DNA of 64,000 bases from Spiribacter halobius. Lineage in GTDB: Bacteria > Pseudomonadota > Gammaproteobacteria > Nitrococcales > Nitrococcaceae. The number at the start of each line of letters is the position of its first letter. Position 1 is the stretch's first letter. Positions 302 to 54,593 of the stretch are shown in pieces. The notes below the pieces were generated by a model that saw only the letters and a list, made by a program, of their open reading frames with translations, did not search any database and was not told the DNA's origin. A program made the position numbers and the translations under genes. The DNA is taken from NCBI RefSeq assembly GCF_020883455.1, contig NZ_CP086615.1, forward strand, positions 3,286,001-3,350,000. The letters are read 5' to 3'.

Positions 302-451
302 CTCCCAGGGTGCGATCGCGGCGCATCCGGTCATCGACAGTCCCGGCGCCCAATCCAGCACGTCCAGCCACCTTCAGTGCAGCATGATAGTCTCGTCGAA
401 CGTCGCCACACACACCGCGATACGCACTCATCCCGCAGGCGGGAGCCGACG

Positions 452-1408: not shown

Positions 1409-2457
1409 AGGCAAAGCTCAAGGCGACCGCACTCGCCGCCACGCGCCGAGGCGGCCTGATGCGCCTCGCCCGGCGACTCACCGGCAGGCGCCTGCGCATC
1501 CTCTGCTACCATGGCATTGCCCTTGCCGACGAGCACCGCTTCCGCGGCGGCCTGTTCATGCACCCGGACACCTTCGCCGAGCGCATGCGCTGGCTGAAGG
1601 CAGCGGACTACCCCGTACTGCCGCTCGGGGAGGCCCTTGAGCGCCTCGGCGCCGGCACACTGCCCCGCGGCGCAACCGTGCTCACCTTCGACGACGGCTG
1701 GAAGGGCACCTACCGCCACGCCTTCCCGGTCCTCCACGAGCTGGGTTTCCCGGCGACGCTCTATGTCACCAGCTACTACGCGGTTAAGCAGACGCAGGTG
1801 TTCAACGTCACAACACGATATCTCTTCTGGAGAGCCGAGCGGGATCGCCTGGACCTTGCCGCAGTGGACCCGTACCTGCGGGGCGAGGCGGACCTGCGAG
1901 GCGCGATGGCCCGGGATGAGGCAGCGGACCGCGTGATCCGGTTCGGCCGCGAGCACTACGACGCCCCGGGCCGCCAGGCCCTGCTCCGCCGCCTAGGCGA
2001 GGCCCTCGGCATCGACGTCCCCGCGCTGGAGGAGCAGGGCGTGTTCCGACTGGTCAGCGGTGAGGAGGTCGCGGCCGCCGCATCCGATGGCATCGACATC
2101 CAGCTGCACAGCCATCGCCATAATCTCGCCCCTTTCGATCGGCAGACGCTGACCCGGGAAATCGAGGACAACCGCGCTGCCCTCGCGGCCTGGATCCCGA
2201 AGCGTCTGGAACACTTCTGCTATCCGGGCGGCCTTTACGAGCGCAGCCTATGGCCCACCCTCCAGGCGCTCGGCATCACCTCGGCGACCACCTGCATCAC
2301 CGGGCTCAACACAGCGCGGACCAGTCGCCTCGAGCTGCGCCGCCTGCTCGACGACGAGAACCTGACCCTCGATGACATCGAAGCTGAGATGAGCGGCCTA
2401 CAGGACCTCCGCCGGGGCCTCGTCGGCGCGCTGCGTCGCGGTGGCGCCGCCACATAG
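1405..2457 (+). CDS. Polysaccharide deacetylase (NodB/CE4 family)
   Basis: This is a 350-residue CE4 carbohydrate esterase-like protein that would remove N- or O-acetyl groups from a polysaccharide. The family motif T-F-D-D-G is at residues 94-98, and a later L-H-S-H-R-H segment supplies the metal-binding histidines. The early R-I-L-C-Y-H-G strand is typical of this branch. A GTG start at 1405 is chosen because it overlaps the upstream stop (GTGA) and follows a G-rich ribosome site; the ATG at 1342 lies inside the upstream gene. No clear signal peptide is present, so action on a membrane-linked intermediate in the cytoplasm is possible. The substrate is unknown. Confidence 0.85.
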   Translation: MKAKLKATALAATRRGGLMRLARRLTGRRLRILCYHGIALADEHRFRGGLFMHPDTFAERMRWLKAADYPVLPLGEALERLGAGTLPRGATVLTFDDGWKGTYRHAFPVLHELGFPATLYVTSYYAVKQTQVFNVTTRYLFWRAERDRLDLAAVDPYLRGEADLRGAMARDEAADRVIRFGREHYDAPGRQALLRRLGEALGIDVPALEEQGVFRLVSGEEVAAAASDGIDIQLHSHRHNLAPFDRQTLTREIEDNRAALAAWIPKRLEHFCYPGGLYERSLWPTLQALGITSATTCITGLNTARTSRLELRRLLDDENLTLDDIEAEMSGLQDLRRGLVGALRRGGAAT

Positions 2458-2610
2458 CCGCCCCAAACCGATCGCACATGTTGCCGCGCGGAGTTCTCAT
2501 CAGGCCTACTTGGGCGGCAGGTGGACACGGGACCTAAGCAGCCATTGCAGGCAGAGCAGGGTCGCGCTCACCCGCACCAGGAACCAACAGGCGGGGGGCA
2601 CCGGGAAAAC

Positions 2611-4542
2611 ATGAACGACTACAGCGACGCGCCCGCTAAGGCGGCGCCCCCCCTTCCCATGGCGGACAATCACGTCATCGTGTGGGGGCCGAGGACCCGG
2701 GAACTCCTAACCGCTCGCGGCTTGAATCACGCGTTCGCCATCTGCGAGCACGGGCTCGCGGCGGTGGCCCGCGCGCTACCGGCAGAACCTGCAGCCACCA
2801 CGCCGCCTCGGGCCCGCCGCGCGGCGCTACAGCTCGCGCCGGCCACCCTCACCCTGCTCGCCGGCTTTGCCGAGGCAGGTGATGGCGCCGAGGGCTATGC
2901 GCCCATCGCGCCTGACGCCCTCTGGCAGCGACTAGAGACGGAGACGCCCGATGCTCGCGTCTCCGGGCAGTTCGTGCTCATCCAGGCGGATGCGCGTACC
3001 CTCCGCATTGCCGTGGACCCGATCGGCTGGGGTGCGCTCTACTGGCTGGAAGCGGCGCCCGAAACCGTCGCCGTGTCCACCGACTTCTGGTCGCTGCTCG
3101 CGTTCCTGCCGGACTCCGAGCGGGAGGTAGACCGCGAGGCATTGTTCGAAACCCTCTGGTATCGGGGCGTATTTGGCGGCAAGACCCTGCTTCGACGCAT
3201 CCGCCAGGCACAGGCCGGGGAGCGGCGGATCTGGACTCGGGGTGGCGGTAGCCGCGAACAGCCCCCGCCCCCCTTCCGCTATCGCGCCGTGCGACGGCCG
3301 CGCGGGCAGAACGCGGAGCGCCTCGATACGCTCCTCCGCACCGAGGCGCTTACGCTCGCGGACCACGGCAGGCACCCGGCCCTGCTGCTCAGCGGCGGAG
3401 TGGACTCAGGTCTCCTGTGCGGGCTGCTTGCGGCACGGGAGGCCCGCAATGCCACCGCGTTCACCGTACGCTTCCGCGGCGCGCGCACCGACGAGACCCC
3501 CGCCGCCATCCGTATCGCCCAGCGCTTCGGCATGCGCCAGGAGCTCATCGAGCTCGCGCCCGAGCAGGTGTTCGACGCCCAGCGCCAGGTCGCCCGGGTT
3601 TACCCCGCCCCTCCCTACCATCCGGGGGCGGGGCATGACCTGCTCACCTACCAGGCCATCGCGGCAGCAGGCGCCGACACTCTGCTCACGGGGGACTATG
3701 CGGACGCGCTCTTCGGCCCGGTGCTCCTGTACACGGTGCAGAACTATCAGCGCCTGCAGCGCATCCCCGCACCGCTGCATGGTGCGACGCTCGCGATCGT
3801 CCGCGCGCTCGCACCGGACAAGGCCCGGGCACTGGAGCAGGTGGCACGGGATTTCGATCAACTAACGCCCCACGACTTCGTACTCCACGTCAATGCGGCC
3901 TGGCGGCTGGCAGCGTCACGCGAGCTCGTTCCGGACGCGGAGCCGACGGATCTGCGGCGGATCGCGGAAGGCTTTCGCAGCGCAAGCCTGGCGGACTGGG
4001 CGAGCACTCATGCGGCCTACACCGCCGATGCCTTCTACGCCCGGCGGCTCTTCGCGCTTGCCGAGCCACTCGGCGTACGGGGGCTTTTGCCGTTTGCGCG
4101 CCCGACGGTCACCGAGTTCGCCGCCAGGCTGCCATTCCGCCAACGCCGGCACAGGGGGATAAACAAGGCGCTGCTGAAGGACGTAGCGGCCCGCTATCTG
4201 CCAGCGGATATCGTCCACGCGCGCAAATCCGGATTCTTCACCAGCGACTTCCATCGGTTGCGCCAGCAGGACGCCCGCTGGAACGACGCCCTGCACGACC
4301 TTCACAACCCGCAGGCGCGCATCCGTAACCACCTGGATCAGGGCGCCCTTGATCGTATGATCCGTGAGGCGCTCACCAGCGACCACACCGGCCACATGGG
4401 CCTGATATGGCGACTCACCACCCTCGAGTGGTGGCTCGAGCGGCTCGCCCGCGGCTCGGATCGGCAGTTCGCGCCGCCGGCCTCGACGGCCGCCGATGAG
4501 CGGCTGCTCGCGCCAGGCCATCTTTCCGGTATGGACACCTAG
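2611..4542 (+). CDS. Asparagine-synthase-like amide ligase lacking the glutaminase cysteine
   Basis: This 643-residue protein has the two-domain plan of asparagine synthetase B. Residues about 1-190 resemble the class II glutaminase fold (the D-P-I-G-W-G-A-L-Y-W segment corresponds to the R-D-x-x-G-x-K-P-L-Y-Y region), but the N-terminal M-C-G nucleophile is absent. The synthetase domain carries an intact pyrophosphate loop S-G-G-V-D-S at 261-266 and a T-G-D-Y-A-D-A-L-F segment in place of the usual S-G-x-G-G-D-E. It would adenylate a carboxylate and form an amide, probably from free ammonia or another amine, as beta-lactam synthetase and O-antigen uronamide enzymes do. The ATG at 2611 is preferred over 2521 because the extra 30 residues are low complexity. 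It heads a run of three related genes. Confidence 0.8.
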   Translation: MNDYSDAPAKAAPPLPMADNHVIVWGPRTRELLTARGLNHAFAICEHGLAAVARALPAEPAATTPPRARRAALQLAPATLTLLAGFAEAGDGAEGYAPIAPDALWQRLETETPDARVSGQFVLIQADARTLRIAVDPIGWGALYWLEAAPETVAVSTDFWSLLAFLPDSEREVDREALFETLWYRGVFGGKTLLRRIRQAQAGERRIWTRGGGSREQPPPPFRYRAVRRPRGQNAERLDTLLRTEALTLADHGRHPALLLSGGVDSGLLCGLLAAREARNATAFTVRFRGARTDETPAAIRIAQRFGMRQELIELAPEQVFDAQRQVARVYPAPPYHPGAGHDLLTYQAIAAAGADTLLTGDYADALFGPVLLYTVQNYQRLQRIPAPLHGATLAIVRALAPDKARALEQVARDFDQLTPHDFVLHVNAAWRLAASRELVPDAEPTDLRRIAEGFRSASLADWASTHAAYTADAFYARRLFALAEPLGVRGLLPFARPTVTEFAARLPFRQRRHRGINKALLKDVAARYLPADIVHARKSGFFTSDFHRLRQQDARWNDALHDLHNPQARIRNHLDQGALDRMIREALTSDHTGHMGLIWRLTTLEWWLERLARGSDRQFAPPASTAADERLLAPGHLSGMDT

Positions 4543-4559
4543 ACTTCCACCCCGGGGCG

Positions 4560-4573
4560 GGTCGGCGCCGACC
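4560..4573. repeat. 14-base perfect palindrome between two asparagine-synthase-like genes
   Basis: GGTCGGCGCCGACC reads the same on both strands and lies in the 71-base gap before the next gene. It is followed by TTCTCCC but by no run of T, so it is a poor intrinsic terminator. It could be an operator or a chance palindrome in GC-rich DNA. Confidence 0.3.
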
Positions 4574-4613
4574 TTCTCCCATAAGGCGCGGACGGACATC
4601 GCGGGAGCACGGC

Positions 4614-6155
4614 ATGCCGAGGCTTCGATTCGAAGAGCAACCCCACTGGCCGAGGCTCGCCTGGCTCGCAGAGTTGCGGCCCAAGGCGGATGTCGTCACC
4701 GTCTTCCACGGGCCGGGAGTCGAGCGCGGCGACGACTGGTGCTGCGAGGCCGTCTGGCCGGGCACTTTTTCCGAAGGGGATTTTGACAATACCGATCTCG
4801 TGGCCGGTTCCGGCGTCCGGGTGCGTGGGGCTGAGGTCTACTTCATTTCCGCCGGCAACACCGTCGACCGGCTCCAGTGGGTGGAACACCGCGGGGGGTT
4901 CCTGATCTCCAATTCGCTTGCCTGTCTGCTGCATGGGGCAGGCCTTCGGCCGATTGCCGCATGGCCCGGGTACGCCCGTACCTTCAATACCATCATCCGG
5001 GGCATCCGGAAGTATGAGAGCGAGATACCGCTGCAGGGTGCGCGCGCGCACCTCGTGTACTTCGACAATCTCCGCTGGAATGGGACCGAGCTCTCAAGGG
5101 CGGAGAAACCTTTCGCGCAGCGCGAGTTCCGGAGTTACTCGCACTATGTCGGATTCCTGAGCGAGAGCCTCGGGGCGATCCTCGACAACGCCCGCTCCGG
5201 CTTGCGCCGCCGGCCATTCGAGCCGCTCAGCACCCTCTCCAGTGGCTACGATTCCACGTTCATCACCACGCTTCTCAAGCCCCACGGTGTTCGCGAGGCG
5301 CTCTGCTTTCGGCGCGGCAGCGGGCGCGACGACGGCAGCGAGCTCTGCCGCAGCATGGGCTTGGCGCCGGTTAGCGCACTGGCGGACGCGTGGCGCCGTG
5401 TCGAGCGCCCGGAGATCCCTTTCCTTGCTGCAAACGCCATCGGCGAGGAGGTGTACTTCGCCGCACTTCAAGAGTGCCTGCCGGGCCGGCTCCTGTTCAC
5501 CGGCTATCACGGCGACAAAGTCTGGGACCGCGACACCCCGTATACCTCACCCGAGTTCGTACGCGGTGACCTCTCGGGCCTGTCCCTCACCGAGTACCGC
5601 CTGGGCGTCGGCTTCATCCAGTGCCCGCCCGCGTTCTTCGGCGCCGGCGCCGTTGCCGACATCCGGGCCATCTCCAACTCGCCCGAGCTTCACCCGTGGG
5701 ACGTGGGCGGCGACTACACCCGTCCCATATGCCGGCGAGTGGTGGAGGAGTCCGGCGTTCCGCGGGACGCGTTCGGCACCCGCAAGAGCTTTGCGGCGCA
5801 GTGGTTCGTCACCACCCCCGCCTTCCTCACTGACTGCTCGCGGGAGGACTACCTCGCCTGGCTGCGACAGCGCCAGTGGGCGTGGCTCGCCTGCGGGCGG
5901 CTCCCGCCCATTCGCAGCGCACACTGGGATCGATCGAGGCAGCGCACGCTGGTGCGGCTGAGCCGCGCCGCAGGCCGTTTCCCGGGCATTCACAAGCCGG
6001 CCCTCCGGCGGCTGCCACCGGTGCGCCACCTCCTGCAGCTCGACGACTGGCGGGGCGGAGCGCCGGCACTGTTCGGCATCAGGCGCTACGTCTTTCCCTG
6101 GGCGATCGAGCAGCAGATGCGAAAGTATTCCCGCGACGCACGCGGAACCGGCTGA
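4614..6155 (+). CDS. Asparagine-synthase-like protein with variant PP-loop (paralogue 1)
   Basis: This is a 513-residue member of the ATP-pyrophosphatase/asparagine synthase superfamily with an unusual loop: S-S-G-Y-D-S-T at 209-215 instead of S-G-G-x-D-S. A second motif, G-Y-H-G-D-K-V-W-D-R-D-T, stands where asparagine synthetases have G-x-G-G-D-E. The N-terminal 190 residues look like a degenerate glutaminase domain without a terminal cysteine (I-S-N-S-L-A-C-L-L corresponds to the usual S-E-x-K-A-L-L region). GGGAG lies just upstream of the ATG. It is clearly homologous to the next gene along its whole length. Amide formation on a sugar acid or peptide-like group is the family-based guess; the substrate is unknown. 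Confidence 0.75.
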   Translation: MPRLRFEEQPHWPRLAWLAELRPKADVVTVFHGPGVERGDDWCCEAVWPGTFSEGDFDNTDLVAGSGVRVRGAEVYFISAGNTVDRLQWVEHRGGFLISNSLACLLHGAGLRPIAAWPGYARTFNTIIRGIRKYESEIPLQGARAHLVYFDNLRWNGTELSRAEKPFAQREFRSYSHYVGFLSESLGAILDNARSGLRRRPFEPLSTLSSGYDSTFITTLLKPHGVREALCFRRGSGRDDGSELCRSMGLAPVSALADAWRRVERPEIPFLAANAIGEEVYFAALQECLPGRLLFTGYHGDKVWDRDTPYTSPEFVRGDLSGLSLTEYRLGVGFIQCPPAFFGAGAVADIRAISNSPELHPWDVGGDYTRPICRRVVEESGVPRDAFGTRKSFAAQWFVTTPAFLTDCSREDYLAWLRQRQWAWLACGRLPPIRSAHWDRSRQRTLVRLSRAAGRFPGIHKPALRRLPPVRHLLQLDDWRGGAPALFGIRRYVFPWAIEQQMRKYSRDARGTG

Positions 6156-31999: not shown

Positions 32000-33165
32000 C
32001 CCTGCACCTCCGTGGCCGGCTCGGCGTGCAGCGCGGCGGTGCGCTCGGCCACCCGCTCCCAGGCGAGCTCGCGGCAGGCGCGCTCGCGGGCACTGGCGGC
32101 GAGGCGGGCCGCCAGCTCGCGGTCGCCCAGGAGGCGGCTGAGCGCCTCGGCGATGGCCTGGGTGTCGGTGCCGTCCACCCGCAGGCCGGTGACGCCGTCG
32201 GCGACGGCAGAGCCGGTGCCACCGGCGATACCGGCGAGCGCCGGGGTGCCGCAGGCCGCGGCCTCCACAAACACCATGCCGAAGCCCTCCGTGTCGCCGT
32301 CGATCTCGCGGTTGGGCATGGCGAAGACATCCGCGGCGCAGTACCAGCGGGGCAGGTCCTCCGCCGGCACGGGACCGAGGAAATGCACGCGGTCCGTAAC
32401 GCCCTGCTCCGCGGCCAGCCGCTTCAGGTCCGGTTCGGCCTCGCCGATGCCGGCGATGGCGTAGTGCACGTCCAGGCCCTGGCGCACCAGTTGCGGCAGC
32501 ATGCGGATCACCTGGTCGAAGCCTTTGCGCAGGTTGAGACGGCCGACGGAGAGGATCAGGGGCTGGTCTTCGCCGATGGCGAGGCCCCTGCGGAGGTCGG
32601 CGGTGGGGTAGTCCGGGCGGAAGCGCTCGAGGTCCACGCCCGGGTGGATGATCTCGATGCGCTCCGGGTCCACGCCGCGCTCGATGAGGGCGTCCCGGGT
32701 GAAGTCGCTGTTGGCGATGACGATGTCCGCGGCGCGGTAGGTGGCGGCCATGGCGCGCTGACGGCGAGGGTGGCGCCAGCCGGTGATCTCCTCGCCGTGG
32801 GCGTAGATGACGAGCGGCCGGCGCAGGAGGCGCGCAAGCAGGCGCGCGACATAGCCCTCGGGGAGCACGCGGCCGGCGTGTACGGCATCGAAGGGATGCC
32901 GCAGGCCGAGGGCGAGGCCTTTCGCGAAGAGCCTTGCGTAGACCGGCAGCGAGGCCGGGCGCAGCCAGGCGTGGCGCGCGAGGCGCAGGCGGTGGACCGT
33001 GTTGGGGTGGCCGCGGTCGTATTCTGCGGCTCCCGGTACGTCGGCGGTGATGATGTGAGTCGCCTTGCCCCCCAGGCGCCGGTAGACGGCATCGAACCAC
33101 ACCGCCGTGCCGCCCTTGGTGGGCAGGAAGAGCTCGGTGAGCACCAGGTAGCGGCCGCCGTTCAT
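31996..33165 (-). CDS. Glycosyltransferase family 4
   Basis: This 389-residue GT-B enzyme begins Y-L-V-L-T-E-L-F-L-P-T-K-G-G-T-A-V-W, has I-Y-A-H-G-E-E-I and A-N-S-D-F-T-R in the N-domain, I-L-S-V-G-R-L-N-L-R-K-G at the interdomain lysine, and a donor site E-G-F-G-M-V-F-V-E-A-A-A-C-G-T-P-A. The ATG at 33165 overlaps the upstream stop by four bases and has GGAGGG upstream; it replaces a longer open frame. Its own stop was coupled to the start of the sulfotransferase now split by the IS. Confidence 0.9.
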   Translation of the reverse strand: MNGGRYLVLTELFLPTKGGTAVWFDAVYRRLGGKATHIITADVPGAAEYDRGHPNTVHRLRLARHAWLRPASLPVYARLFAKGLALGLRHPFDAVHAGRVLPEGYVARLLARLLRRPLVIYAHGEEITGWRHPRRQRAMAATYRAADIVIANSDFTRDALIERGVDPERIEIIHPGVDLERFRPDYPTADLRRGLAIGEDQPLILSVGRLNLRKGFDQVIRMLPQLVRQGLDVHYAIAGIGEAEPDLKRLAAEQGVTDRVHFLGPVPAEDLPRWYCAADVFAMPNREIDGDTEGFGMVFVEAAACGTPALAGIAGGTGSAVADGVTGLRVDGTDTQAIAEALSRLLGDRELAARLAASARERACRELAWERVAERTAALHAEPATEVQG

Positions 33166-34616
33166 GCCCGGCCCTCCACCTCGTTCGTGGCCATGGTCGT
33201 CTCCGGCACCCGCAGGAGCCACGCTGCAGCCATCGCCGGCAGGGCGAGGCCCGTGGCCCAGGCAAGCTTGCGCAGGCGCCCGTGCCCCGACAGGCGGCGC
33301 AGTGTGACGCGCAGGCGGGCGGCCGCGTGGCGGTCGACCAGGGTCGGATCCCTCCGGCGATAGGCCGCGGCGAGTTCCTGGCAACTCATGAAGCGCACGT
33401 CCGGCAGCGCCGCCCCCGCCCAGTCCAGCAGCCGATCCAGCTCGGCGAGGCTGCGCTGGAAGGTGGCCTCGTCGCCGGTGAAGTTGGCGCGGTGCGTCTC
33501 GAGCAGCGCCGGGCGGCCGAGGGTAAAGCGCCGGCGCACGGCGGCGAGTGCGGCGTCCGCGGTGTGGCCGCGCCCGGGCTCGAAGTAGATGTCGCGCACG
33601 AGGTACAGGGCGCTGCCGGCGGCCGGCTGGCCGTTGCCGATGGGGCCTTCTGGCGCGGCCGGCTGGCCATTGGCGTCACGGGCGGTGTAGCGGCGGTCGG
33701 GAGTGATGATGGCCTCGACGCCGGCGTTGATCCAGGTCTCTTCCACCTCGCGCGTCCAGACGAAGGTCGGGGGGACGGCGACCTTCGGCGGGGTGCCGAG
33801 GATGCGGGCGTAGGTGGCCACCTCCTCCTGCGCGGCGGCCTTGATGGCGGCTCTGGCCAGGGGCCGCGAGGGCAGGGTCGTGGTGTCGGCCCAGCGAGTC
33901 TGGAGGTGGGGGGGCAGGGCCTCGGTTTGGGGGTAGTCCTCCGCCGTGAGCCAGTGAAGGAGGGAATTCGCGGCGGCGGTGCCGCTCCCACAGGCGCTGG
34001 CACCGGCACTGTTCGCGGCACCCTCTCCGCTGTGGGAGGCGCGTTCCCGCGGCGATTCTTCGGTCAGCACGGCGGAGCCGTGTGCGACATCTGCTGTCTG
34101 ATTCGGGCCCTGCATAACGCACTCTGCGCGCCTTCGCGGTCGGAGACCGCTCCCACGGGGGGCGGCCTTCAGCGCCTGCTGAAGGGTTTCGGGCCAGTAG
34201 TGGGCCAGGCCATGGAGCTGGGGGGCGAAGACGCGTCGCGCGATGCCGCCACGGATGGCCTTGAGGATGGGCTCGGCGCTTGGGTCGTCCAGGGCGATGG
34301 TCGGAACGGCGTCCGGGTGCTCGCGGGCGGCCCGGCCGTCCGGGGCCGTGAGGATGAGTCCGAGGGTCATCACGGCCGGGCGGCCGGTGCTGTCGCGGCG
34401 TCTACCCAGGCGCGCGGCGATGCACTGGAGGCGCTCGGCGTGCTCCGGCGGGCCTGGGGACCAGTCGTCGCTCTCGATGACGAGCACGGGGTGGCGCAGC
34501 ACGGGCTCGCGCCAGGCGCGGCGGATGGTGTGGCGATAGTGCCAGACGATTGCCGCCCAGCTCGCGAGCATGAGCACGAGTACCACGCCGAGCGCAGTCA
34601 GCAGCTCAGAGGCCAT
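33162..34616 (-). CDS. Membrane-anchored polysaccharide-deacetylase-like protein with a repeat-derived insert
   Basis: This is a 484-residue protein. One membrane helix is at residues 4-26 and another near 455-475. After the first helix comes L-V-I-E-S-D-D-W, which resembles the first metal-binding strand of NodB-fold enzymes. Later segments (P-Q-L-H-G-L-A-H, L-L-E-T-H-R-A-N-F, R-F-M-S-C-Q-E-L) would supply histidines and the barrel end. The assignment is by resemblance only. Residues about 151-218 are encoded by REP-like repeats and include T-E-E-S-P, also found in the FemAB and stp1 inserts. The ATG at 34616 overlaps the upstream sulfotransferase by 11 bases. Confidence 0.6.
   Translation of the reverse strand: MASELLTALGVVLVLMLASWAAIVWHYRHTIRRAWREPVLRHPVLVIESDDWSPGPPEHAERLQCIAARLGRRRDSTGRPAVMTLGLILTAPDGRAAREHPDAVPTIALDDPSAEPILKAIRGGIARRVFAPQLHGLAHYWPETLQQALKAAPRGSGLRPRRRAECVMQGPNQTADVAHGSAVLTEESPRERASHSGEGAANSAGASACGSGTAAANSLLHWLTAEDYPQTEALPPHLQTRWADTTTLPSRPLARAAIKAAAQEEVATYARILGTPPKVAVPPTFVWTREVEETWINAGVEAIITPDRRYTARDANGQPAAPEGPIGNGQPAAGSALYLVRDIYFEPGRGHTADAALAAVRRRFTLGRPALLETHRANFTGDEATFQRSLAELDRLLDWAGAALPDVRFMSCQELAAAYRRRDPTLVDRHAAARLRVTLRRLSGHGRLRKLAWATGLALPAMAAAWLLRVPETTMATNEVEGRA
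33962..34160. repeat. Cluster of REP-like repeats inside a deacetylase-like gene
   Basis: Three recognisable arms occur here: ATTCGCGGCGGCGGTGCCGC (33965), GCTGTGGGAGGCGCG with GCGGCGATTCTTC (34029-34062) and TCGCGGTCGGAGACCGCTCC (34133). Each matches repeats found in the stp1, femAB or wecB genes. All three kinds are combined in one in-frame block of about 200 bases. Confidence 0.75.
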
Positions 34617-35625
34617 ACAGCGCTCCGGCCCGCGTGTCGCGAACGGCGGCCTGGACACGGCCCTGCACGTCGGCCGGCAGGCGCTCCCGCCAGGCGTCCG
34701 CGGCGCGGGCGGCGTCGCGGTGGACGCCGAAGTAGGCACCGTCGTCGGCACGGGTACTCTCGCGGATGAAGCTACGTGTCTGTGCCTCCCAGGAGAGGCC
34801 AGCGAAGGCGAAGAGCTCGGCGAAGCGCTCATGCGGCGCCCGACACAGGTCCTCGTAGCGGGCGAGGCGGCAGACAGAGCTGCCCTCCGTATCGTCCAGG
34901 GCCTTCTCGTTGAACAGCGCCCAACGCCAGGCAAGGCGCTCCTCGGGCTCCATCGCCATGAGCGAGTCCAGGTCAAGCCCATAGCGCCGTGCCTGAGGCG
35001 TCTCCGCCAGCTGCCCGAAAATGCCGCGATCGGCGCTGGTGGCGACGCCGCCAGCGAGCCGTCCACTCTGTTCTCCGCGGAGCACCGAGTCCACATATCC
35101 ACAGGGGTGGCGGATGATGTGTACGCCACGCGCCCCCGGGATGTTGCGCACGGCAAGGCCGAGGCGCCCGAGCGATTCGATGGACTTCCAGGCCAGCCTG
35201 ACGCCATGCCTGCCGGAGGCTCTCATCAGGGCCGGAACCGGAAAGTCCCGTCCCGACGCCTTGCCGGCGGCCTTCGCGGAGACGATCAGGAGACTGCGGG
35301 CGCGCTCGGCCAGAGGGCTGCGGTAGCGCTTGGGGAACTGCGGAAGCTTCCCCGTGACCCGGGCAAGACGACACGCAGGCAGGCGTTCCGCGAATCCCTG
35401 CAGCCATTCACCCTGAATAGGGTCGTCCGCATCGGGGAGCAGCGGCAGATCCCTTAGGATCCGGCCGCTGTCCGGCTCGTGCAGGTAAAGCACGTCCGGG
35501 TGGCTGTCGAAGACCTTGCCGACCCAAGTCGTGCCCGAGCGCGGCATACCGAAGAGCAGCACCGGCCCGTCAGTGGCGGCCGCTGCCATTGGCGACTGCG
35601 GGATGTGGCTGGAGGCTGTGCTCAT
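34606..35625 (-). CDS. Sulfotransferase
   Basis: This 339-residue sulfotransferase has the PAPS loop G-M-P-R-S-G-T-T-W at 26-34 and the 3'-phosphate segment H-I-I-R-H-P-C-G-Y-V-D-S in the middle, in canonical order. The ATG at 35625 overlaps the stop of the upstream asparagine-synthase-like gene (ATGA) and has GGAGGGG upstream. It would sulfate a sugar in the cytoplasm. Context places it among the XrtA-associated glycan enzymes, so the XrtA polysaccharide itself may be sulfated. Confidence 0.88.
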   Translation of the reverse strand: MSTASSHIPQSPMAAAATDGPVLLFGMPRSGTTWVGKVFDSHPDVLYLHEPDSGRILRDLPLLPDADDPIQGEWLQGFAERLPACRLARVTGKLPQFPKRYRSPLAERARSLLIVSAKAAGKASGRDFPVPALMRASGRHGVRLAWKSIESLGRLGLAVRNIPGARGVHIIRHPCGYVDSVLRGEQSGRLAGGVATSADRGIFGQLAETPQARRYGLDLDSLMAMEPEERLAWRWALFNEKALDDTEGSSVCRLARYEDLCRAPHERFAELFAFAGLSWEAQTRSFIRESTRADDGAYFGVHRDAARAADAWRERLPADVQGRVQAAVRDTRAGALYGL

Positions 35626-47611: not shown

Positions 47612-49177
47612 CTACTGCCCCCCTCGCACGGTGGACGTGAGTGTGTCGTCAAGCGCCGGGCGGGCGTCGGCGAGGAAGGCGCGCAGGGTCTCGCGGGCCT
47701 CCTCGCGCTCGGTGCCGTAAGGGGCGTAGACGACGACCCCGGCGGTGCCGCGCTCGCGGCCCATGAGCGGCGCGAATGCCTCCAGCGCCTTGCCCTGGAT
47801 CCGGTCGGTGAGGTGCTCGCCGCCGATCCAGTACCAGTACCAGGCGAGCACGCGCTGGCCCTCCAGGCGCAGGTCCGCCTCGTAGACCGACCCGCCGGGG
47901 GCGGCAGGGACGTCCCCACGCACACTGACCGTGGTCATGCGCCAGCGCGGATGCTTCTGCTCCACCATGACGTTCTGGCTGTTGATGAGCTCGCCCTGCT
48001 CCGCGTGCGGCAGGTAGTAGGCCAGGTAGAGGCCGGCCTCGCCGGCGGGCCCCTGGTAGCTCGCGTGGCGCTCGAGGTCCATGCCGCGGTAGCGGGGCGA
48101 CCACTCAGTGAGCCCGCCGTCACTCTGCGACCATCCGGCCACCACCGGCGCCTGCAGCGCCGCGCGGGAGAAGGCGCTGGCGGGCGGGCCCTGGAGCTGG
48201 TACGCAAGCGCCGGCCAGGCGGCCAGGGCGAGCACGCCGATACCCGCCACGGAGAACGGTGTGGCAAGGCCCTGCCGACGCGGCTCGGGCTCGAGGCTGC
48301 CGGGCGCCGGGCCACGGGTGTCCTCCGCCCAGTAGGCGCCGACCCAGAACATCAGCAGAATCACCACGCCGAAGAACACCCAGCCATAGATCAGGTGATC
48401 GACGCCGGTGGCGTATTCCATGCCGCTGAAGTGGCCGATCATCACGATCATGTAGGCGCGCAGGCTGTTGGCGATGATCGGAACGATCACCGAGGCCACC
48501 ACGAACAGGCTGCGCCGCAGGGCGCTGCGGTAGGTGATGTAGGCGTAAAGCGTGCCGAGGGCCACTGAGGCGATCAGGTAGCGCAGGCCGCTGCAGCCCT
48601 CGACGATGGACCAGTTGCCACTCGGCAGGCTGAAGAAGAACCCCTCCCGGAACACCGGAATGCCCGACAGGCGCACCAGGGAGACGGTGACGTCCGCCGT
48701 CAGCTTCATCAGCGGCAGGATGAGGAACTCGCCGATGGGCACCGAGAAGAACAGGTAGGCGAGCGGGAAGAGCAGCGCCCAGACCACCCGGGTGCCCAGC
48801 GTCAGCCAGACCACGGCGGGGATCATGCTCACCAGCGCGAGCTGCTGGGTCACAGCCACCTCGGCGAGGTCGCTCAGCAGCCAGAGGAAGCCCGCCCCGA
48901 TCAGCACGACCAGCGCCAGCGGCTGGGGCCGCGGCGCGATCTGCGCCAGCACCTCCCGCCGCCGCCAGATCAGGAACAGGCTGATGGGCGCGATTATGTA
49001 GCCGTGGGCGAAGGTCTCCGAGCGCGTCCAGATCTCCACCATGGACCAGGCCGTGGGGAAGAACAGCGCCAGGGTGAGCGCGATGAGCCCCACCGCCAGC
49101 GCACCCGCCAGCGGCCAGGAATAGGGCCGCTGCTCACCGACCGCAGCCGAAGGCAGGTGATCGGTGCTCGCGCTCAT
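47612..49177 (-). CDS. xrtA: Exosortase A fused to EpsI domain
   Basis: This 521-residue protein combines a multi-pass exosortase (residues about 20-290, eight helices) with a C-terminal EpsI-like periplasmic domain (about 310-521). The transpeptidase-type catalytic residues are all visible: Cys195 in E-G-C-S-G-L-R-Y, Arg240 in N-S-L-R-A-Y and His261 in V-D-H-L-I-Y-G-W. XrtA cuts the PEP-CTERM tail of exported proteins and is thought to pass them to a carbohydrate-linked form; no such substrate is encoded in this window. The ATG at 49177 overlaps the stp1 stop (ATGA) and has GGAGG upstream. Confidence 0.95.
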   Translation of the reverse strand: MSASTDHLPSAAVGEQRPYSWPLAGALAVGLIALTLALFFPTAWSMVEIWTRSETFAHGYIIAPISLFLIWRRREVLAQIAPRPQPLALVVLIGAGFLWLLSDLAEVAVTQQLALVSMIPAVVWLTLGTRVVWALLFPLAYLFFSVPIGEFLILPLMKLTADVTVSLVRLSGIPVFREGFFFSLPSGNWSIVEGCSGLRYLIASVALGTLYAYITYRSALRRSLFVVASVIVPIIANSLRAYMIVMIGHFSGMEYATGVDHLIYGWVFFGVVILLMFWVGAYWAEDTRGPAPGSLEPEPRRQGLATPFSVAGIGVLALAAWPALAYQLQGPPASAFSRAALQAPVVAGWSQSDGGLTEWSPRYRGMDLERHASYQGPAGEAGLYLAYYLPHAEQGELINSQNVMVEQKHPRWRMTTVSVRGDVPAAPGGSVYEADLRLEGQRVLAWYWYWIGGEHLTDRIQGKALEAFAPLMGRERGTAGVVVYAPYGTEREEARETLRAFLADARPALDDTLTSTVRGGQ

Positions 49178-51162
49178 GAGCGGGACCTCCGACGGGTGGT
49201 GGATGGTGTCGGATGGGGATTCGCGCAGCAGAATTGCGCTCCGACAGGTGCGGCGGCTCTGCCGCGACTCTCCCTGGAGCGAACGGACATTCGGCGCGAG
49301 TGCGCGCCTCCCACAGGTGGATTCATGGCCTCGGTGGCGTGATCGAAGCCCGTAGGAGCGGCGCCCTCGCCGCGAATCCCTTTCCCGGTGGGAGCGGTCT
49401 CCGACCACGATAGCGCGCCCCGCGCGCTGCCCGGGACGCTGGGATGCACGTCGCTGCGCGCCATTTCGCGGTCGGAGACCGCTCCCACGGGATAAGCAGC
49501 GTCCCGACCGTAGGTCGTGCGCGGCGACGCCGCGTGCGACGTTTCCACGTCTGCCATGGGATGTCGCACACCGCTTTCGGCGGTGCACGACCTACTGGAT
49601 CCCGGGCTTCGACGCGAGGGCGCGCCTCCCACAGGCGGGTTCAGGGCCTCAGTGGCTCGATTGAAGCCTTTGGGAGCGGCACCCTCGCCGCGAATCTCCG
49701 GCTCGTTCCCCCTCGCCAGCAACGCCTCCACCGCGGCGACCGACGCGGCCCAGCTATGGTGCTCGCGGACATAGCGCATCGCGTTCGCCCCCAGCTCGGC
49801 CGCTCGCTCGGGGCGCTGAATCAGGGCAAGCACGGCCTCGACGAAGGGCTTGGGGTCGCTCGCGACGAACAGGTGCTCGCCGTGCCTCACGTCGATCCCC
49901 TCCAGCGCCTGCGGGGTACAGACGACGGTCTTGGCCATCGCCATGGCCTCCAGCACCTTGTTCTGAATGCCCCGCGCGATGGTGAGCGGCGCCACCACCG
50001 CGGCGGCGTGGCCGACGTAGGGGCGGACGTCCGGCACGCGGCCGGTGACACTGATGCCCGCCTCCCGCGCGAGCGCCTCAACGGCAGGCGTGGGGCGCAG
50101 GCCAACGACGCAGAACGCGGTGTCGGGCTCGCGTTCGCGAATGCGCGGGAAGATCTCGCGGGCGAACCAGAGGACGGCCTCGACGTTGGGGCGATAGTCC
50201 ATGGCGCCGGTGAAGACCAGGGTGTGCGTCCCGCCGAAGGGGTTCTCCCCGCACTTCTCCGGGCTGAAGTACTCGGTGTCGACCCCGTTCGGCACGGCGT
50301 GCACCCGCCCCGCGAGCTCCGGCGCCGACCGCAGGAAGCAAGTCCGCTCGGATTCGGTGACCAGCAGCGTATGGTCCGCCCGGTGTGCGCGCTCGCGCTC
50401 GAAGGCGGCGAGGCGGCGCCCTTCCAGGCTGTAGAGCCAGCCCATCAGGCCCCCAGCTTCGCCGTATTGGCGCCATTTCTCGGAGTCGACGTCGACGAAG
50501 TCCGTGATGGTGAGGGGGCGGAGATCGCCGCGGCTCGTGCCTCCCACGGCGGGGAGGGGCTTCGCTCCTGCTTTGGGAGAGAGTTCGGGCGCACCTGTGG
50601 GAGAGTCGCCGCGGCTCGCGCCTCCCACAGCGAGCGGAACGCCCTCCTTCCCTGTGGGAGGCGCTTGTAGCGGCGACTCTTCGGCAGGCACTCTGCCCGC
50701 CGCCAAGGGTCGCTGAGCCGACTCACCTCCCACAGGTAGCGACAGTGCCCCGGTGGTCCGATCAACGCCTGTGGGAGCGGCGCCCTCGCCGCGAATCGGC
50801 ATGTACTGCGCCATCGTCGACGAGTAGACGAAGACGTTGTCCATGCCCTCCGCGAGCTTCGCGCCCACCCAGCGCTGCATGCGACGGTCGCGATAGAAGG
50901 CGACGCTCAGGGACTGCCGGGTGGGCAGCGCGGCAAGGCTGCGCAGCTTGCCCAGCCGGCGGTTCAGCCACACCAGATGCACTTCGGCGCAGATCTGCTC
51001 GAGGGCCTCGCGTCCCGCCCAGTCCACGGCATCGTCCACGAAGGCCCCGAGATGGACGCGGTGCCGTGCCGCCAGCCCGCGCAGGAGGTTCCAGGCGCGG
51101 ATCTTCTCGCCCTTGTCCGGCGGGTAGGGGATGCGGTGGCATAGGAACAGCAGGTCGCTCAT
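49174..51162 (-). CDS. XrtA-associated glycosyltransferase stp1 (TIGR03087 type) enlarged by repeat-derived inserts
   Basis: The core is the exosortase-associated sugar transferase: L-L-F-L-C-H-R-I-P-Y-P-P-D-K-G-E-K at the start, D-F-V-D-V-D-S-E-K-W in the middle and R-G-I-Q-N-K-V-L-E-A-M-A at the donor site. The protein is 662 residues, against about 400 expected. Two segments explain the excess: residues about 123-214 and the tail from about 489 to 662. Both are encoded by palindromic REP-like repeats and contain three copies of R-G-E-G-A-A-P and one P-V-G-A-V-S-D-R-E. Subtracting them leaves about 396 residues. The tail lies after the fold, so the enzyme is probably active. The stop is coupled to xrtA. 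Confidence 0.88.
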   Translation of the reverse strand: MSDLLFLCHRIPYPPDKGEKIRAWNLLRGLAARHRVHLGAFVDDAVDWAGREALEQICAEVHLVWLNRRLGKLRSLAALPTRQSLSVAFYRDRRMQRWVGAKLAEGMDNVFVYSSTMAQYMPIRGEGAAPTGVDRTTGALSLPVGGESAQRPLAAGRVPAEESPLQAPPTGKEGVPLAVGGASRGDSPTGAPELSPKAGAKPLPAVGGTSRGDLRPLTITDFVDVDSEKWRQYGEAGGLMGWLYSLEGRRLAAFERERAHRADHTLLVTESERTCFLRSAPELAGRVHAVPNGVDTEYFSPEKCGENPFGGTHTLVFTGAMDYRPNVEAVLWFAREIFPRIREREPDTAFCVVGLRPTPAVEALAREAGISVTGRVPDVRPYVGHAAAVVAPLTIARGIQNKVLEAMAMAKTVVCTPQALEGIDVRHGEHLFVASDPKPFVEAVLALIQRPERAAELGANAMRYVREHHSWAASVAAVEALLARGNEPEIRGEGAAPKGFNRATEALNPPVGGAPSRRSPGSSRSCTAESGVRHPMADVETSHAASPRTTYGRDAAYPVGAVSDREMARSDVHPSVPGSARGALSWSETAPTGKGIRGEGAAPTGFDHATEAMNPPVGGAHSRRMSVRSRESRGRAAAPVGAQFCCANPHPTPSTTRRRSRS
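49296..49378. repeat. REP-like repeat type A, copy 1 (stp1 tail)
   Basis: GCGAGTGCGCGCCTCCCACA at the left and GTAGGAGCGGCGCCCTCGC at the right form imperfect inverted arms around a variable centre. It is close to the copy at 49614-49696. On the - strand it encodes I-R-G-E-G-A-A-P-T-G-F-D. Confidence 0.8.
49388..49488. repeat. REP pair type B (stp1 tail)
   Basis: GTGGGAGCGGTCTCCGACC (49388-49406) and its exact complement (49470-49488) bracket 63 bases. Similar pairs are in wecB and, as single arms, in the DUF3473 deacetylase and the gene at 33162. Confidence 0.85.
49510..49595. repeat. REP pair type C (stp1 tail)
   Basis: GTAGGTCGTGC (49510-49520) and GCACGACCTAC (49585-49595) are inverted ends; GTGCGAC and GTCGCAC lie inside. 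Half elements recur at 53226-53264 and 53808-53842. Confidence 0.85.
49614..49696. repeat. REP-like repeat type A, copy 2 (stp1 tail)
   Basis: GCGAGGGCGCGCCTCCCACA and GGGAGCGGCACCCTCGCCGC bracket a centre nearly identical to copy 1. It marks the point where the normal stp1 coding sequence ends and the extra tail begins. Confidence 0.8.
50521..50796. repeat. REP-like block inserted in frame in the middle of stp1
   Basis: From right to left the block contains a type A repeat (GTGGGAGCGGCGCCCTCGCC at 50771) and a type D pair (AGTCGCCGC... at 50604-50630 with its partner at 50652-50678). A further CCGCGGCTCGTGCCTCCCAC copy lies near 50535. It encodes about 92 residues with no stop. The type D part shares its peptide with the femAB insert. 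Confidence 0.85.
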
Positions 51163-51167
51163 GCCGG

Positions 51168-52382
51168 TCACCCGAGGCTGCGGACTATGTGAGGGCCAAT
51201 GGCATTCGCCACCGGCAGCGGGAGGCGCTGCCAGAGGCGGATGAAGCGCTGGTAGCGCGGGTTCATGGGGCTGTTGTCGCGCAGCGCGTGCTCGCGCACC
51301 AAGCGGCACTCGTAGTGCAGCGGCTCGGGGATGAACCCCCAATGCTTCTTGAAGCGGTAGGAGCCCGTGTCCTTCTTGCTGCGGCCGTAGTCGAAGACCC
51401 TGCAGCCCCTCTGCCGCGCACGCTCCATGAGCGACCAGTACATGAAGTCGTTGGCGTAGAGCCCCCGGCTCGCGCCGGTGCCGCCGCCGTAGTAGGGGAA
51501 CACCTCGTCGCGGAAGTAGAAGCTGAGCACGCTCGCCACGATCCGGCCGCGGTGGGTGACTGTGAGCACCTCGCAGGCGTCGCCGAAGACGTCACGCAGG
51601 ATGTCGAAGTAACGCTTCGCGAAGACCGGGGTACCCAGGTTGCGCACGCTCTCGGCGTAAGCCGGGAAGAAGCGCGCGCTGTCGTCATCCAGTGACCACT
51701 CAAGGCCCGCGTCGATGCCCTTGCGCACCATGGCCCGCTGCTTGCGGGGGATGGCCTTCAGGTTGGCGTCCGGGTCCTCGTGGATGGCGCCGCGGAAGGT
51801 GACGTAGAGGTCTTTCGTGGGCCAGTCGTCGTGTAGGGCGAAGTCGCGGTGACGGTACTCCAGGTGGCCGACGCCGAGGTCCTCGGCAAGATCCACGGCG
51901 GCCTGGTCCAGCGCCTGGGTCGCCCGGTCCGTGGTCGCGGCGATGCCGCCGTAGACACAGAACGGCAGCGAGGTGAGCTGGTCGCCGAACAGCCGGCTTC
52001 TCACCCGGGCCAGCGGCAGCACCCCCTCGATGCCCTGCTCGCCCTCGGCCATCAGGAACCAGGTGGGGTGCCGGAAGGCGCGCTCGATGACCGTCTGCCA
52101 GCCGGCGCGGTGGCAGAAGGTGGCCGTTGGGCAGGCGTCGACGAAGGCGTCCCAGCGGGGGTGGTCGCTTTCGGTCAGGGTGGTGACCTGGAGGCCGTGC
52201 GAAGAGTCGCCGCGACTCGCGCCTCCCACAGTGGCAGGAGGAGACTCTGGCGCCGCTGTGGGAGGCGCTTGTAGCGGCGACTCTTCAGTAGGGTTCCTGC
52301 CCGCCGCGGAGGGTCGCCGAGTGGACTCGCCTCCCACGGGCGGCTCGGACTCACCGGCGTGGCGCTCCATCCACTCGCTCAT
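51168..52382 (-). CDS. XrtA-associated FemAB-like protein with a repeat-derived N-terminal insert
   Basis: This 404-residue member of the GNAT/FemAB-like family occurs with exosortase A. The core begins L-Q-V-T-T-L-T-E-S-D-H-P-R-W-D-A-F and includes L-P-F-C-V-Y-G-G, I-P-R-K-Q-R-A-M-V-R-K-G, P-Y-Y-G-G-G-T-G-A-S-R and F-D-Y-G-R-S-K-K-D-T-G-S-Y. FemAB proteins add aminoacyl groups; the XrtA-linked substrate is unknown. Residues about 10-61 are encoded by a REP-like repeat and contain E-E-S-P-L-Q-A-P-P-T and V-G-G-A-S-R-G-D-S, both also found in stp1. Without them the protein is about 350 residues. The start is coupled by ATGA to the deacetylase stop. Confidence 0.9.
   Translation of the reverse strand: MSEWMERHAGESEPPVGGESTRRPSAAGRNPTEESPLQAPPTAAPESPPATVGGASRGDSSHGLQVTTLTESDHPRWDAFVDACPTATFCHRAGWQTVIERAFRHPTWFLMAEGEQGIEGVLPLARVRSRLFGDQLTSLPFCVYGGIAATTDRATQALDQAAVDLAEDLGVGHLEYRHRDFALHDDWPTKDLYVTFRGAIHEDPDANLKAIPRKQRAMVRKGIDAGLEWSLDDDSARFFPAYAESVRNLGTPVFAKRYFDILRDVFGDACEVLTVTHRGRIVASVLSFYFRDEVFPYYGGGTGASRGLYANDFMYWSLMERARQRGCRVFDYGRSKKDTGSYRFKKHWGFIPEPLHYECRLVREHALRDNSPMNPRYQRFIRLWQRLPLPVANAIGPHIVRSLG
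52201..52355. repeat. REP pair type D inserted in femAB
   Basis: GAAGAGTCGCCGCGACTCGC (from 52201) and TGTAGCGGCGACTCTTC (to 52286) are inverted arms, each continued by GCGCCTCCCACAG or its complement. A third arm with GGGTCGCCGAGTGGACTCGC follows. The arrangement is nearly the same as in stp1 at 50604-50745. Confidence 0.88.
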
Positions 52383-53338
52383 CCCATCACCTCGGGAAAA
52401 ATCCGGTCGATGCGGTCCCAGGCGAAGTCCTGGAGCAGGCGCCGGAGGCGGCCTTCGGTGCGGCGGAGGCCAACGTAGTGGCGGAAGCGGGTCCTCGCCG
52501 GGATGCCGGGCATGCGCGGCTGGTCCGGGTCGATCTCCCACGGGTGTAGATAGAAGATCGCGTTGCGGCCCTCGGCGTTGATGCGGCGCAGGCTCCAGCG
52601 GCTGACGCCGTAGGGCAGCAGGCGGAAGTAGCCACCGCCGGCGGCGGGCCATGTGCGCCCGGCGGCCGGCAGCGCAGCCACGGGGATCTCCAGCGCGCTG
52701 CCCTCACCATTCGGCCGGTGCAGACCGAGGGGCGAGTCCGGCATGCCGTAGTGATCATGGCGGATCGGGTACACGCTCGAGCTGTAGGCATGCCCGGTCG
52801 CGGCCAGCGCGTCCCAGGCCCGGGGGGTGCGCGCGTCCATGGAGAAGCTGGGAGCACGGTAGCCGCGCACGAGGGCGCCGCCGGCGTCCTCCAGCAGGCC
52901 CTTGGCGCGTATGAGGTCCTCGCGGAAAGCTGCATCGTCGAGGTCGCGGACCCGGCGGTGGTCGTAGCCGTGGCTGGCCAGCTCGTGGCCTTCCTCGACG
53001 ATCCGCCGGACGAGCGCGGGATAGCGCTCGGCGATCCACCCGAGGGTAAAGCAGGTGCTGCGCACGCCATGCTCGGCCATAAGGTCGAGCAGGCGGTGGG
53101 TGTTGGCCTCGACCCGGCCCGGATAGTCGTCCCAATGCGCCCGCGGTGCTATGCCCTCGAAGGCGGAGACCTGGAAGTAGTCTTCGATGTCGAGGGTGAG
53201 GGCGTTGACTGGGTTAGCCGGGCTGGGATGTCGCACACGGCCTTCGGCCGTGCACGACCTACCGGCTTGTACTGCGCCGCGCGCGGCTTCGCGGGCGGAG
53301 ACCGCTCCCACGGGGAGTTTGCTACGCCACTGCTCCAT
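52379..53338 (-). CDS. XrtA-associated polysaccharide deacetylase (DUF3473, TIGR03006 type)
   Basis: This is a 319-residue deacetylase with N-A-L-T-L-D-I-E-D-Y-F-Q-V-S-A-F-E near residue 45, H-G-Y-D-H-R-R-V metal histidines, and Y-R-A-P-S-F-S followed by Y-L-H-P-W-E-I-D-P-D-Q-P, all diagnostic of the exosortase-linked family. Family members normally begin just before the L-D-I-E-D motif. Here about 38 extra residues, including P-V-G-A-V-S-A-R-E and R-S-C-T-A-E, come from REP-like repeats. The ATG at 53338 has GGAG upstream; a GTG at 53347 overlaps the wecB stop. It would trim acetyl groups from the XrtA glycan. Confidence 0.9.
   Translation of the reverse strand: MEQWRSKLPVGAVSAREAARGAVQAGRSCTAEGRVRHPSPANPVNALTLDIEDYFQVSAFEGIAPRAHWDDYPGRVEANTHRLLDLMAEHGVRSTCFTLGWIAERYPALVRRIVEEGHELASHGYDHRRVRDLDDAAFREDLIRAKGLLEDAGGALVRGYRAPSFSMDARTPRAWDALAATGHAYSSSVYPIRHDHYGMPDSPLGLHRPNGEGSALEIPVAALPAAGRTWPAAGGGYFRLLPYGVSRWSLRRINAEGRNAIFYLHPWEIDPDQPRMPGIPARTRFRHYVGLRRTEGRLRRLLQDFAWDRIDRIFPEVMG
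53226..53317. repeat. REP-like half elements at the 5' end of the deacetylase gene
   Basis: GATGTCGCACACGGCC with GTGCACGACCTAC (type C half, 53228-53264) is followed by GCGGGCGGAGACCGCTCCCA (type B arm, from 53290). Both fall within the first 38 codons. Confidence 0.78.
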
Positions 53339-53339
53339 C

Positions 53340-54593
53340 TCAGCCACTCCTGCCGAGCCAGCGGTTGAGCTCGGTGGCGATGCGCTCGGCGGTCTGGCCG
53401 TCCCAATACTCCGGGATGCGGCCCTGCTTGCCGCCGGTGGTGAGGATGTTGTCCACCGCGGCGAGGATGGTGGCGCGGTCGGTGCCGACCAGGGTGTTGG
53501 TGCCCTGCTCGATGGTGATGGGGCGCTCGGTGTTCTCCCGCACGGTGAGGCACGGGATGCCGAGGGCGGTGGTCTCCTCCTGGAGGCCGCCGGAGTCGGT
53601 GATCACCAGGGTGGCGCTCTGGAGCAGCCCGAGCATGGTGAGGTAGTCGACGGGGTCCAGGAGGTGGAGGTTGGTCGCTCCCGTGGGAGCGGCTTCCGAC
53701 CGCGAAACGGCGCCTGGCGCCGTACCCTCCGGGGGCTCCTGGAGCGCGCTGCGCGCGCTTTCGCGGTCGGAGACCGCTCCCACAGGAGCCGCTGTGCCCG
53801 CGGAGCCGTAGGTCGTGCGCGGCGCAGCCACGTGCGACATCCGCGCGCGGGTCCGCGGATGCACGGGGAACACAAGCGGCAAACGCTCGGCGGCCTCGTT
53901 AAGGGTGCCAACGATGTTCGCGAGGACTGCCGCGTCGTCCACGTTCGACGGGCGGTGCAGGGTGACAAGGCCCCAGGGCTTCGCCGGGTCCACGTCCAGC
54001 GCCGCGAGAGTCTGGGCGGCGCTTACCGCCTTCTCCCGGTTGCGGTGGACGGAGTCGATCATGACGTTGCCGACGAAGCGCACGCGCTCGGCGGGCACCC
54101 CTTCGCGGGCGAGGTTGTCCTCGGCTTTCGCCTCCGTGGTGAACAGCAGGTCGGCAATCTGATCGGTAAGGACGCGGTTGATCTCCTCGGGCATGGTGCG
54201 GTCGTAGGAGCGCAGGCCGGCCTCGACGTGAATCACGGGCACGCCCTTCTTGCTCGCCACCAGGGTGCACGCGAGCGTGGAGTTGACGTCCCCGACCACG
54301 AGCACCGCCGCCGGCTGCACCTCGTCCAGGACCGGCTCGAAGTGCTCCATCACCGCCGCGGTCTGCTTCGCGTGGCTGCCGGAGCCCACCTCCAGGGAGA
54401 TGTCCGGCTTCGGCAGGCCAAGCGCCGCGAAGTGCTGCTCGTTCATGGCCACGTCGTAGTGCTGGCCGGTGTGCACGAGCGTCGCGGGGATCGCCGGCTC
54501 GGCGCGGGCGAACGCCTCCAGGATCGGCGCCATCTTCATGAAGTTGGGGCGGGCGCCGACGACGCAGAGAACAGGTGGCAGAAGCTTGCTCAT
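53340..54593 (-). CDS. wecB: UDP-N-acetylglucosamine 2-epimerase (non-hydrolysing), with repeat-derived insert
   Basis: This is a 417-residue epimerase that converts UDP-GlcNAc to UDP-ManNAc for the glycan. Motifs are V-V-G-A-R-P-N-F-M-K at 11-20, H-T-G-Q-H-Y-D, V-V-G-D-V-N-S-T near 100, H-V-E-A-G-L-R-S and P-E-E-I-N-R, T-L-H-R-P-S-N-V-D, and S-G-G-L-Q-E-E near 340. Residues about 251-304 are encoded by REP-like repeats, between P-V-H-P-R-T-R and L-H-L-L-D-P. This surface stretch lies between two conserved strands where the family has only about ten residues. Without it the protein has the normal size of about 365. It is part of the XrtA operon. Confidence 0.92.
   Translation of the reverse strand: MSKLLPPVLCVVGARPNFMKMAPILEAFARAEPAIPATLVHTGQHYDVAMNEQHFAALGLPKPDISLEVGSGSHAKQTAAVMEHFEPVLDEVQPAAVLVVGDVNSTLACTLVASKKGVPVIHVEAGLRSYDRTMPEEINRVLTDQIADLLFTTEAKAEDNLAREGVPAERVRFVGNVMIDSVHRNREKAVSAAQTLAALDVDPAKPWGLVTLHRPSNVDDAAVLANIVGTLNEAAERLPLVFPVHPRTRARMSHVAAPRTTYGSAGTAAPVGAVSDRESARSALQEPPEGTAPGAVSRSEAAPTGATNLHLLDPVDYLTMLGLLQSATLVITDSGGLQEETTALGIPCLTVRENTERPITIEQGTNTLVGTDRATILAAVDNILTTGGKQGRIPEYWDGQTAERIATELNRWLGRSG
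53683..53842. repeat. REP cluster inserted in frame in wecB
   Basis: GTGGGAGCGGCTTCCGACC (53683-53701) and TCGCGGTCGGAGACCGCTCC (53761-53780) form a type B pair. GTAGGTCGTGCGCGGC (from 53808) with GTGCGACATCC is a type C half. The cluster adds about 54 codons. Confidence 0.87.

Follow-up and report, generated by a model that had tools for sequence, protein, structure and literature searches.

Four adjacent genes of an XrtA exosortase operon in Spiribacter halobius carry five blocks of short palindromic repeats in their reading frames, and the probable explanation is that REP and REPIN elements were inserted in the operon, in part by spreading locally, and that the copies which were in frame and structurally tolerated survived. 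The blocks lie on the minus strand between 49215 and 53842; two of them are in the frame of stp1 and one each in those of femAB, the deacetylase gene and wecB, and frame is kept in all five. A conserved domain is found on both sides of the block only for the stp1-internal and wecB blocks, the other three being placed at protein ends. An earlier note on this DNA had located palindromic repeats inside these open reading frames, which is confirmed, and had described blocks of repeats in four adjacent genes; the four genes stand, and the blocks number five since stp1 has an array at its C-terminus besides the internal block. The types A to D that it distinguished are all found genome-wide, and a fifth, type E (TGTGGGAGGCGCGCnCTCGCG), is present as well.

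The XrtA operon and its repeat blocks

The window, i.e., the whole stretch of 64,000 nucleotides that was analysed, has a G+C content of 67.6% and corresponds to positions 3286001-3350000 in a genome that consists of one contig of 4,172,350 bases; positions are those of the window unless genome coordinates are indicated. On the minus strand the genes follow each other in the order wecB, DUF3473 deacetylase, femAB, stp1 and xrtA. The genes and blocks are the following:

53340..54593, minus strand: wecB, UDP-N-acetylglucosamine 2-epimerase (TIGR00236, 307.4 bits, cut-off 210.15)
53680..53842, minus strand: wecB internal REP block (types D, A, A), in-frame repeats
52379..53338, minus strand: XrtA-system polysaccharide deacetylase (DUF3473) from its likely ATG (TIGR03006, 396.8 bits, cut-off 276.2)
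53224..53314, minus strand: REP block in the deacetylase N-terminal tail (types A, D), in-frame repeats
51168..52382, minus strand: femAB from its likely ATG (TIGR03019, 487.2 bits, cut-off 260.35)
52200..52340, minus strand: REP block in the femAB N-terminal tail (types B, B), in-frame repeats
49174..51342, minus strand: stp1 open reading frame (ORF), XrtA-system glycosyltransferase (TIGR03087, 499 bits, cut-off 316.65)
50519..50797, minus strand: stp1 internal REP block (types B, B, B, C), 93 aa, in-frame repeats
49215..49697, minus strand: REP array coding the stp1 C-terminal tail (types C, E, D, D, A, A, C, E in the core at 49290-49697; beyond it, as far as about 49215, the copies are degenerate, as judged by eye)

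All four decorated genes exceed the curated NCBIfam cut-offs, and the likely start of stp1 was placed by alignment near 51162 (MSDLL). The sizes that the earlier note had obtained by subtracting the repeats (396, 351, 281 and 363 residues for stp1, femAB, deacetylase and wecB) are indeed near the lengths of the NCBIfam models, which count 397 (TIGR03087), 330 (TIGR03019), 272 (TIGR03006) and 366 (TIGR00236) positions.

The operon is compact. ATGA overlaps join the stop of the deacetylase gene to the start of femAB and that of stp1 to the start of xrtA, and there is almost no gap between wecB and deacetylase or between femAB and stp1; in relatives, ATGA-style stop/start arrangements were counted at 49/87 deacetylase ends and 52/83 stp1 ends (a loose count, chance occurrences included). 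Because the genes overlap or nearly touch, a REP landing in the operon would have little non-coding room. As to the substrates of the pathway, only two matches to PEP-CTERM (PF07589) exceed the cut-off in the genome (genome coordinates 3363354-3363428 and 442003-442068), which suggests from sequence that the exosortase pathway does have substrates.

Blocks inside the stp1 and wecB domains

The insertions were compared with 93 loci, of which 13 come from relatives and 80 are the best among 303 loci with femAB in named genomes; both conserved stp1 blocks are held in one ORF at 82 of these loci and both wecB blocks at 46. In stp1, 91 aa separate the conserved blocks, vs 1-25 aa (median 2) in the 82 orthologues; at the loci of the three relatives with 23-25 aa at this site, a scan for the repeat head motif found nothing at that loop. 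The protein further extends 179 aa past its domain, vs at most 45 aa in the 82 relatives, and at least 136 residues of this tail are REP-coded. The 408-nt core of the tail array is open in the frame of the gene and contains two stops in each other sense frame. In wecB, the loop is 60 aa long, vs 17 aa in 45 and 15 aa in one of the 46 orthologues. Since the 163-nt wecB block yields a net gain of only 129 nt, some 34 nt of the native loop were apparently lost or replaced.

These repeat-free orthologues identify the stp1 and wecB blocks as intragenic, in-frame REPs and rule out, for both genes, that the extra segments are an ordinary feature of the family. No insertion site common to relatives was found among the 82 stp1 and 46 wecB orthologues (the 59 relatives searched listed no other species of the genus). 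The alignment with orthologues proposed in the earlier note thus did not reveal the same extra segments for stp1 and wecB, and its claim of in-frame REP insertions absent from orthologues holds for these two genes, is likely to hold for femAB and is undecided for the deacetylase, where 8/45 relatives have an equal or longer spacing.

The decorated proteins retain the residues typical of their families. Of the columns in which the aligned relatives are at least 95% identical, wecB keeps 140/144 (46 relatives) and stp1 89/95 (49 of the 82 relatives). The AlphaFold model of wecB has a mean pLDDT of 87.1 and resembles solved 2-epimerases with a Foldseek probability of 1.00; ten-residue means fall to 43-70 over residues 251-310, within which a short helix is modelled at 273-283. 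For stp1 the mean pLDDT is 71.3, with values below 50 at residues 127-210 (the insert) and 492-662 (the tail). To judge from these low-confidence regions, the inserts and the tail are probably disorder-like, and the models keep the fold around the inserts. No second wecB that could make the inserted copy dispensable was found in the genome, this gene being the sole TIGR00236 member found. The low-confidence inserts, the kept conserved residues and the single-copy state of wecB support the view that the insertions are tolerated in working enzymes. Against tolerance counts the near-constant length of the wecB loop in relatives (17 aa in 45/46), so that the site is not an obviously tolerant one.

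Blocks at the N-terminal tails of femAB and deacetylase

For the two N-terminal blocks it has to be considered whether they are coding at all. They may really be intergenic, translation of femAB and deacetylase beginning at or after the repeats, in which case only stp1 and wecB would be decorated inside; this is somewhat unlikely. In-frame GTG codons do occur inside the repeats, and PMC3733652 cautions that many N-terminal REPs are extragenic. For femAB, however, the start ATG at 52382, in the ATGA overlap with the deacetylase stop, is preceded by AGGTGA, and the stretch between repeat and domain contains no ATG, GTG or TTG. Between the upstream stop and the femAB domain there are 188 nt here and not more than 89 nt in 81/86 relatives, although the other five have 205-312 nt. 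From the sequence, a coding nature of the femAB block is well supported. For the deacetylase, the likely start ATG at 53338 lies behind AGGAG, which speaks against a later start, but the 133 nt from the upstream stop to the domain are equalled or exceeded in the 8/45 relatives mentioned above, and the evidence for a coding insertion is not decisive.

Repeat families and their distribution

Pattern scans of the whole genome gave 47 matches for type A, 11 for type B, 47 for type C and 24 for type D, and every reversed control gave 0. In the window, GTGGGAGSNG is observed 19 times, compared to 2.6 expected, a count reached by 0/100 shuffles; chance repeats are ruled out by these two controls. Two of the features used to define REPs and REPINs of the GTAG superfamily are present: the palindrome is short and dispersed in many copies, and inverted pairs are frequent, with A-A pairs at several sites, often 63 bp start to start. 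All listed type D copies (whose pattern itself fixes GTAG) and many type C copies read TAG after the G position, and in types A and B the usual reading there is TGG. Folded as single-stranded DNA, five of six stretches had z-scores between -3.8 and -9.1; folding was weaker for the deacetylase block (z -2.4, equalled by 2/200 shuffles). Paired copies give long hairpins when folded, which we take to be REPIN-like behaviour as the term is commonly used. The repeats are REP and REPIN elements resembling the GTAG superfamily. Two patterns for neighbouring or related REP types had 0 matches in this genome, the second of them having served to find copies in relatives.

The hairpins raise the question of a role in the RNA. 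Those at gene junctions could process, stabilise or attenuate the operon mRNA, the in-frame state being a by-product, and in line with this, three of the five blocks are at gene junctions, the hairpins are strong on folding, and GTAG-1 arrays are reported to flank Thauera exopolysaccharide genes (PMC3733652). Such a role is nonetheless improbable as the explanation, given that two blocks are internal to domains and that hairpins are a property of any REP.

The 129 matches to types A-D group into 92 sites, most of which are outside genes, as obtained by the whole-genome consensus search that the earlier note had proposed. The densest 5 kb of the genome are those of the operon, with 15/129 matches in less than 5 kb; counting units more than 400 bp apart, the operon holds five in 5 kb, whereas randomly placed units reach a maximum of 2.4 on average (P = 0.001). 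Further dense regions are found at genome coordinates 560290-574309 (10 matches) and 3458666-3470000 (8 matches). This load, the densest of the genome, together with the mere two PEP-CTERM matches and the deviation of stp1 at 6/95 conserved columns, could indicate that the operon is decaying and that insertions are tolerated since the proteins no longer matter. That is very unlikely, as four genes score over their family cut-offs, wecB is conserved to the extent given above, and all five blocks are in frame.

Sites were classed as in-gene when their flanks were coding in one open frame according to a coding model trained on this genome. Seven of the 92 sites were so classed. One of them, a type B match with three mismatches at genome coordinate 2042043, in an ORF resembling a heavy-metal ATPase, was discarded as probably due to chance, leaving stp1, wecB, an ORF at 34 kb, flgJ, cheB and a uvrA double gene. 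The inserts in the last three fall between domains. The uvrA double gene is a 1874-aa minus-strand ORF at positions 380-6001 of the genome stretch 2160154-2166154, reaching the end of the stretch, and consists of two UvrA-like halves in one frame with type C REPs in the linker; REPs in uvrA genes have also been reported in PMC3733652.

Internal sites number 2/5 in the operon vs 4/87 elsewhere (p = 0.03), and sites in any coding sequence 5/5 vs 4/87 (p = 3e-6), the latter comparison being biased by the examination of protein ends only in the operon; both figures are rough, as the coding-flank method misses the three protein-end blocks of the operon and would miss others elsewhere. In relatives, 60 stretches were scored, a subset of the places listed; two genomes supplied 59 of them and a third genome the remaining one, and 10 sites near stretch ends were dropped. 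Of the scored sites in these stretches, 0/87 are in genes, with misses possible since 79/87 have flanks that were not both called coding. The difference between 6/92 in-gene sites in this genome and 0/87 in relatives has p = 0.03, with classes defined after looking.

Reading frame of the intragenic blocks

Besides the operon, the window contains one further intragenic block:

33966..34160, minus strand: REP block (types A, E, C) in ORF 33165-35222, read in frame unlike the other intragenic blocks

The ORF itself (33165-35222, minus strand) matches nothing in NCBIfam or Pfam at E 0.001. Eight of the nine intragenic blocks, with units matched at up to four mismatches, read in one frame (GTG GGA forward, CCC AC reverse), and in the ninth, that of the 34-kb ORF, all three matched units read outside this frame. 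The probability of at least 8/9 in the named frame is 0.0009 with three equal frames and 0.014 when only stop-free frames are counted, to be read in view of the frame having been named after seeing the data and of the blocks being partly related. The favoured frame gives a Gly/Ala/Pro/Ser-rich, Arg-poor peptide (70% A/G/P/S/T/E, 10% R/K and 6% W/C/F/Y/I/L), vs 48%, 25-27% and 11-16%, respectively, in the other two frames. As far as it can be read from sequence, a bias toward one shared frame is suggestive only.

If real, this bias predicts which REP-coded peptides proteins accept, and is testable in any REP-rich genome. On a bolder reading, REPs would be mobile coding cassettes for disordered linkers, in which the GTGGGAG-headed palindromes have one frame whose peptide is near-neutral and Gly/Ala/Pro/Ser-rich in either orientation, and selection keeps intragenic copies in almost only that frame. 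We regard this as unlikely; if true, the elements enter compact operons and lengthen the loops and ends of working enzymes.

Probable local spread and proposed course of insertion

Sequence relationships among the blocks bear on their source. The stp1-internal block is closest to the femAB block and vice versa (79% over 138 nt), and the wecB block finds its best match in the stp1 tail (73% over 159 nt). Against local spread, the stp1 tail itself best matches arrays elsewhere in the genome (72% over 220 nt and 71% over 204 nt), and the best matches of the deacetylase block are also elsewhere. A gene for a REP-associated tyrosine transposase (REP_Tyr_transpos, NF047646; 123.8 bits, cut-off 80) is located at genome coordinates 3480566-3480958 and is adjoined by the palindrome GTGGGAGGCGCGC, which resembles types B and E only. 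Tandem Y1 transposase copies (genome coordinates 444602-446300) were rejected as the likely mover, their flanking repeats being of another kind and their scores below the REP-transposase cut-off. These copies are identical over the 513/513 nt compared, one has a DnaA C-terminal domain, and their flanks are unlike types A-D.

The insertion of REP/REPIN elements may be pictured as follows. Elements presumably moved by a REP-associated tyrosine transposase would insert into the XrtA operon, in part spreading inside it; with operon genes overlapping or nearly touching, incoming copies would fall in coding sequence, and those in frame at protein ends or in loops would be kept, the others presumably being lost as harmful. 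Translated together with their genes, the repeats would then add flexible segments to working enzymes, and these segments most likely serve no function in themselves. The earlier note had offered insertion with survival of only in-frame copies at tolerated sites as its alternative, and this turns out to be the better explanation. The heavy block load of this particular operon is not explained by neutral tolerance alone.

Comparison with known systems

The earlier note had named Rickettsia palindromic elements for in-frame insertion, but such insertion is not a speciality of Rickettsia. Intragenic GTAG and CGTC REPs have been described in several bacteria, with a proposal of neutral insertion in ends, linkers or loops (PMC3733652; BMC Genomics 2013), and in-frame ERIC/RU-1, Yersinia (YPAL) and 107-bp Neisseria repeats have been reviewed (PMC2229807). 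With in-frame intragenic REPs known since 2013 (PMC3733652), and other small repeats of this kind before that, the claim of novelty in the earlier note was too strong; what stands is that a literature search for REPs in an exosortase context found no paper, and within the reach of that search the exosortase setting looks unreported. A limited search on the frame use of intragenic REPs yielded nothing further on point, and five blocks in one operon, a REP-coded tail of at least 136 residues and a frame shared by 8/9 blocks (the last being suggestive) were not found described. The present case adds an exosortase/exopolysaccharide operon, in which adjacent genes are unusually loaded, to the settings of in-frame REP insertion, and single-copy wecB offers a clean test case for translation and tolerance of a REP-coded segment.

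The REPs of PMC3733652 are likewise short palindromes that occur singly, in pairs or in groups, mostly between genes and in some cases in genes of known proteins. That paper stresses DNA repair genes, whereas here four adjacent exosortase-operon genes are concerned; its larger inserts measure 43-82 aa, compared to a 93-aa internal insert and a REP-coded tail of at least 136 aa; and its REPs carry GTAG or CGTC tags, whereas types A, B and E begin with GTGG in most or all copies. The ERIC/RU-1, YPAL and 107-bp Neisseria repeats are also small, non-autonomous and fused to genes in frame, but they are longer MITE-like units with TA ends and not REPs (PMC2229807). Rickettsia palindromic elements (RPEs) are similar in being in-frame, solvent-exposed palindromes in conserved proteins, and an RPE-decorated guanylate kinase has been reported to be translated and active (PMC3767692; PMC2229807). 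They differ in organism and in repeat type, and in that an RPE site is common to orthologues across Rickettsia (PMC3767692; PMC2229807), whereas the inserts described here are shared by no relative examined.
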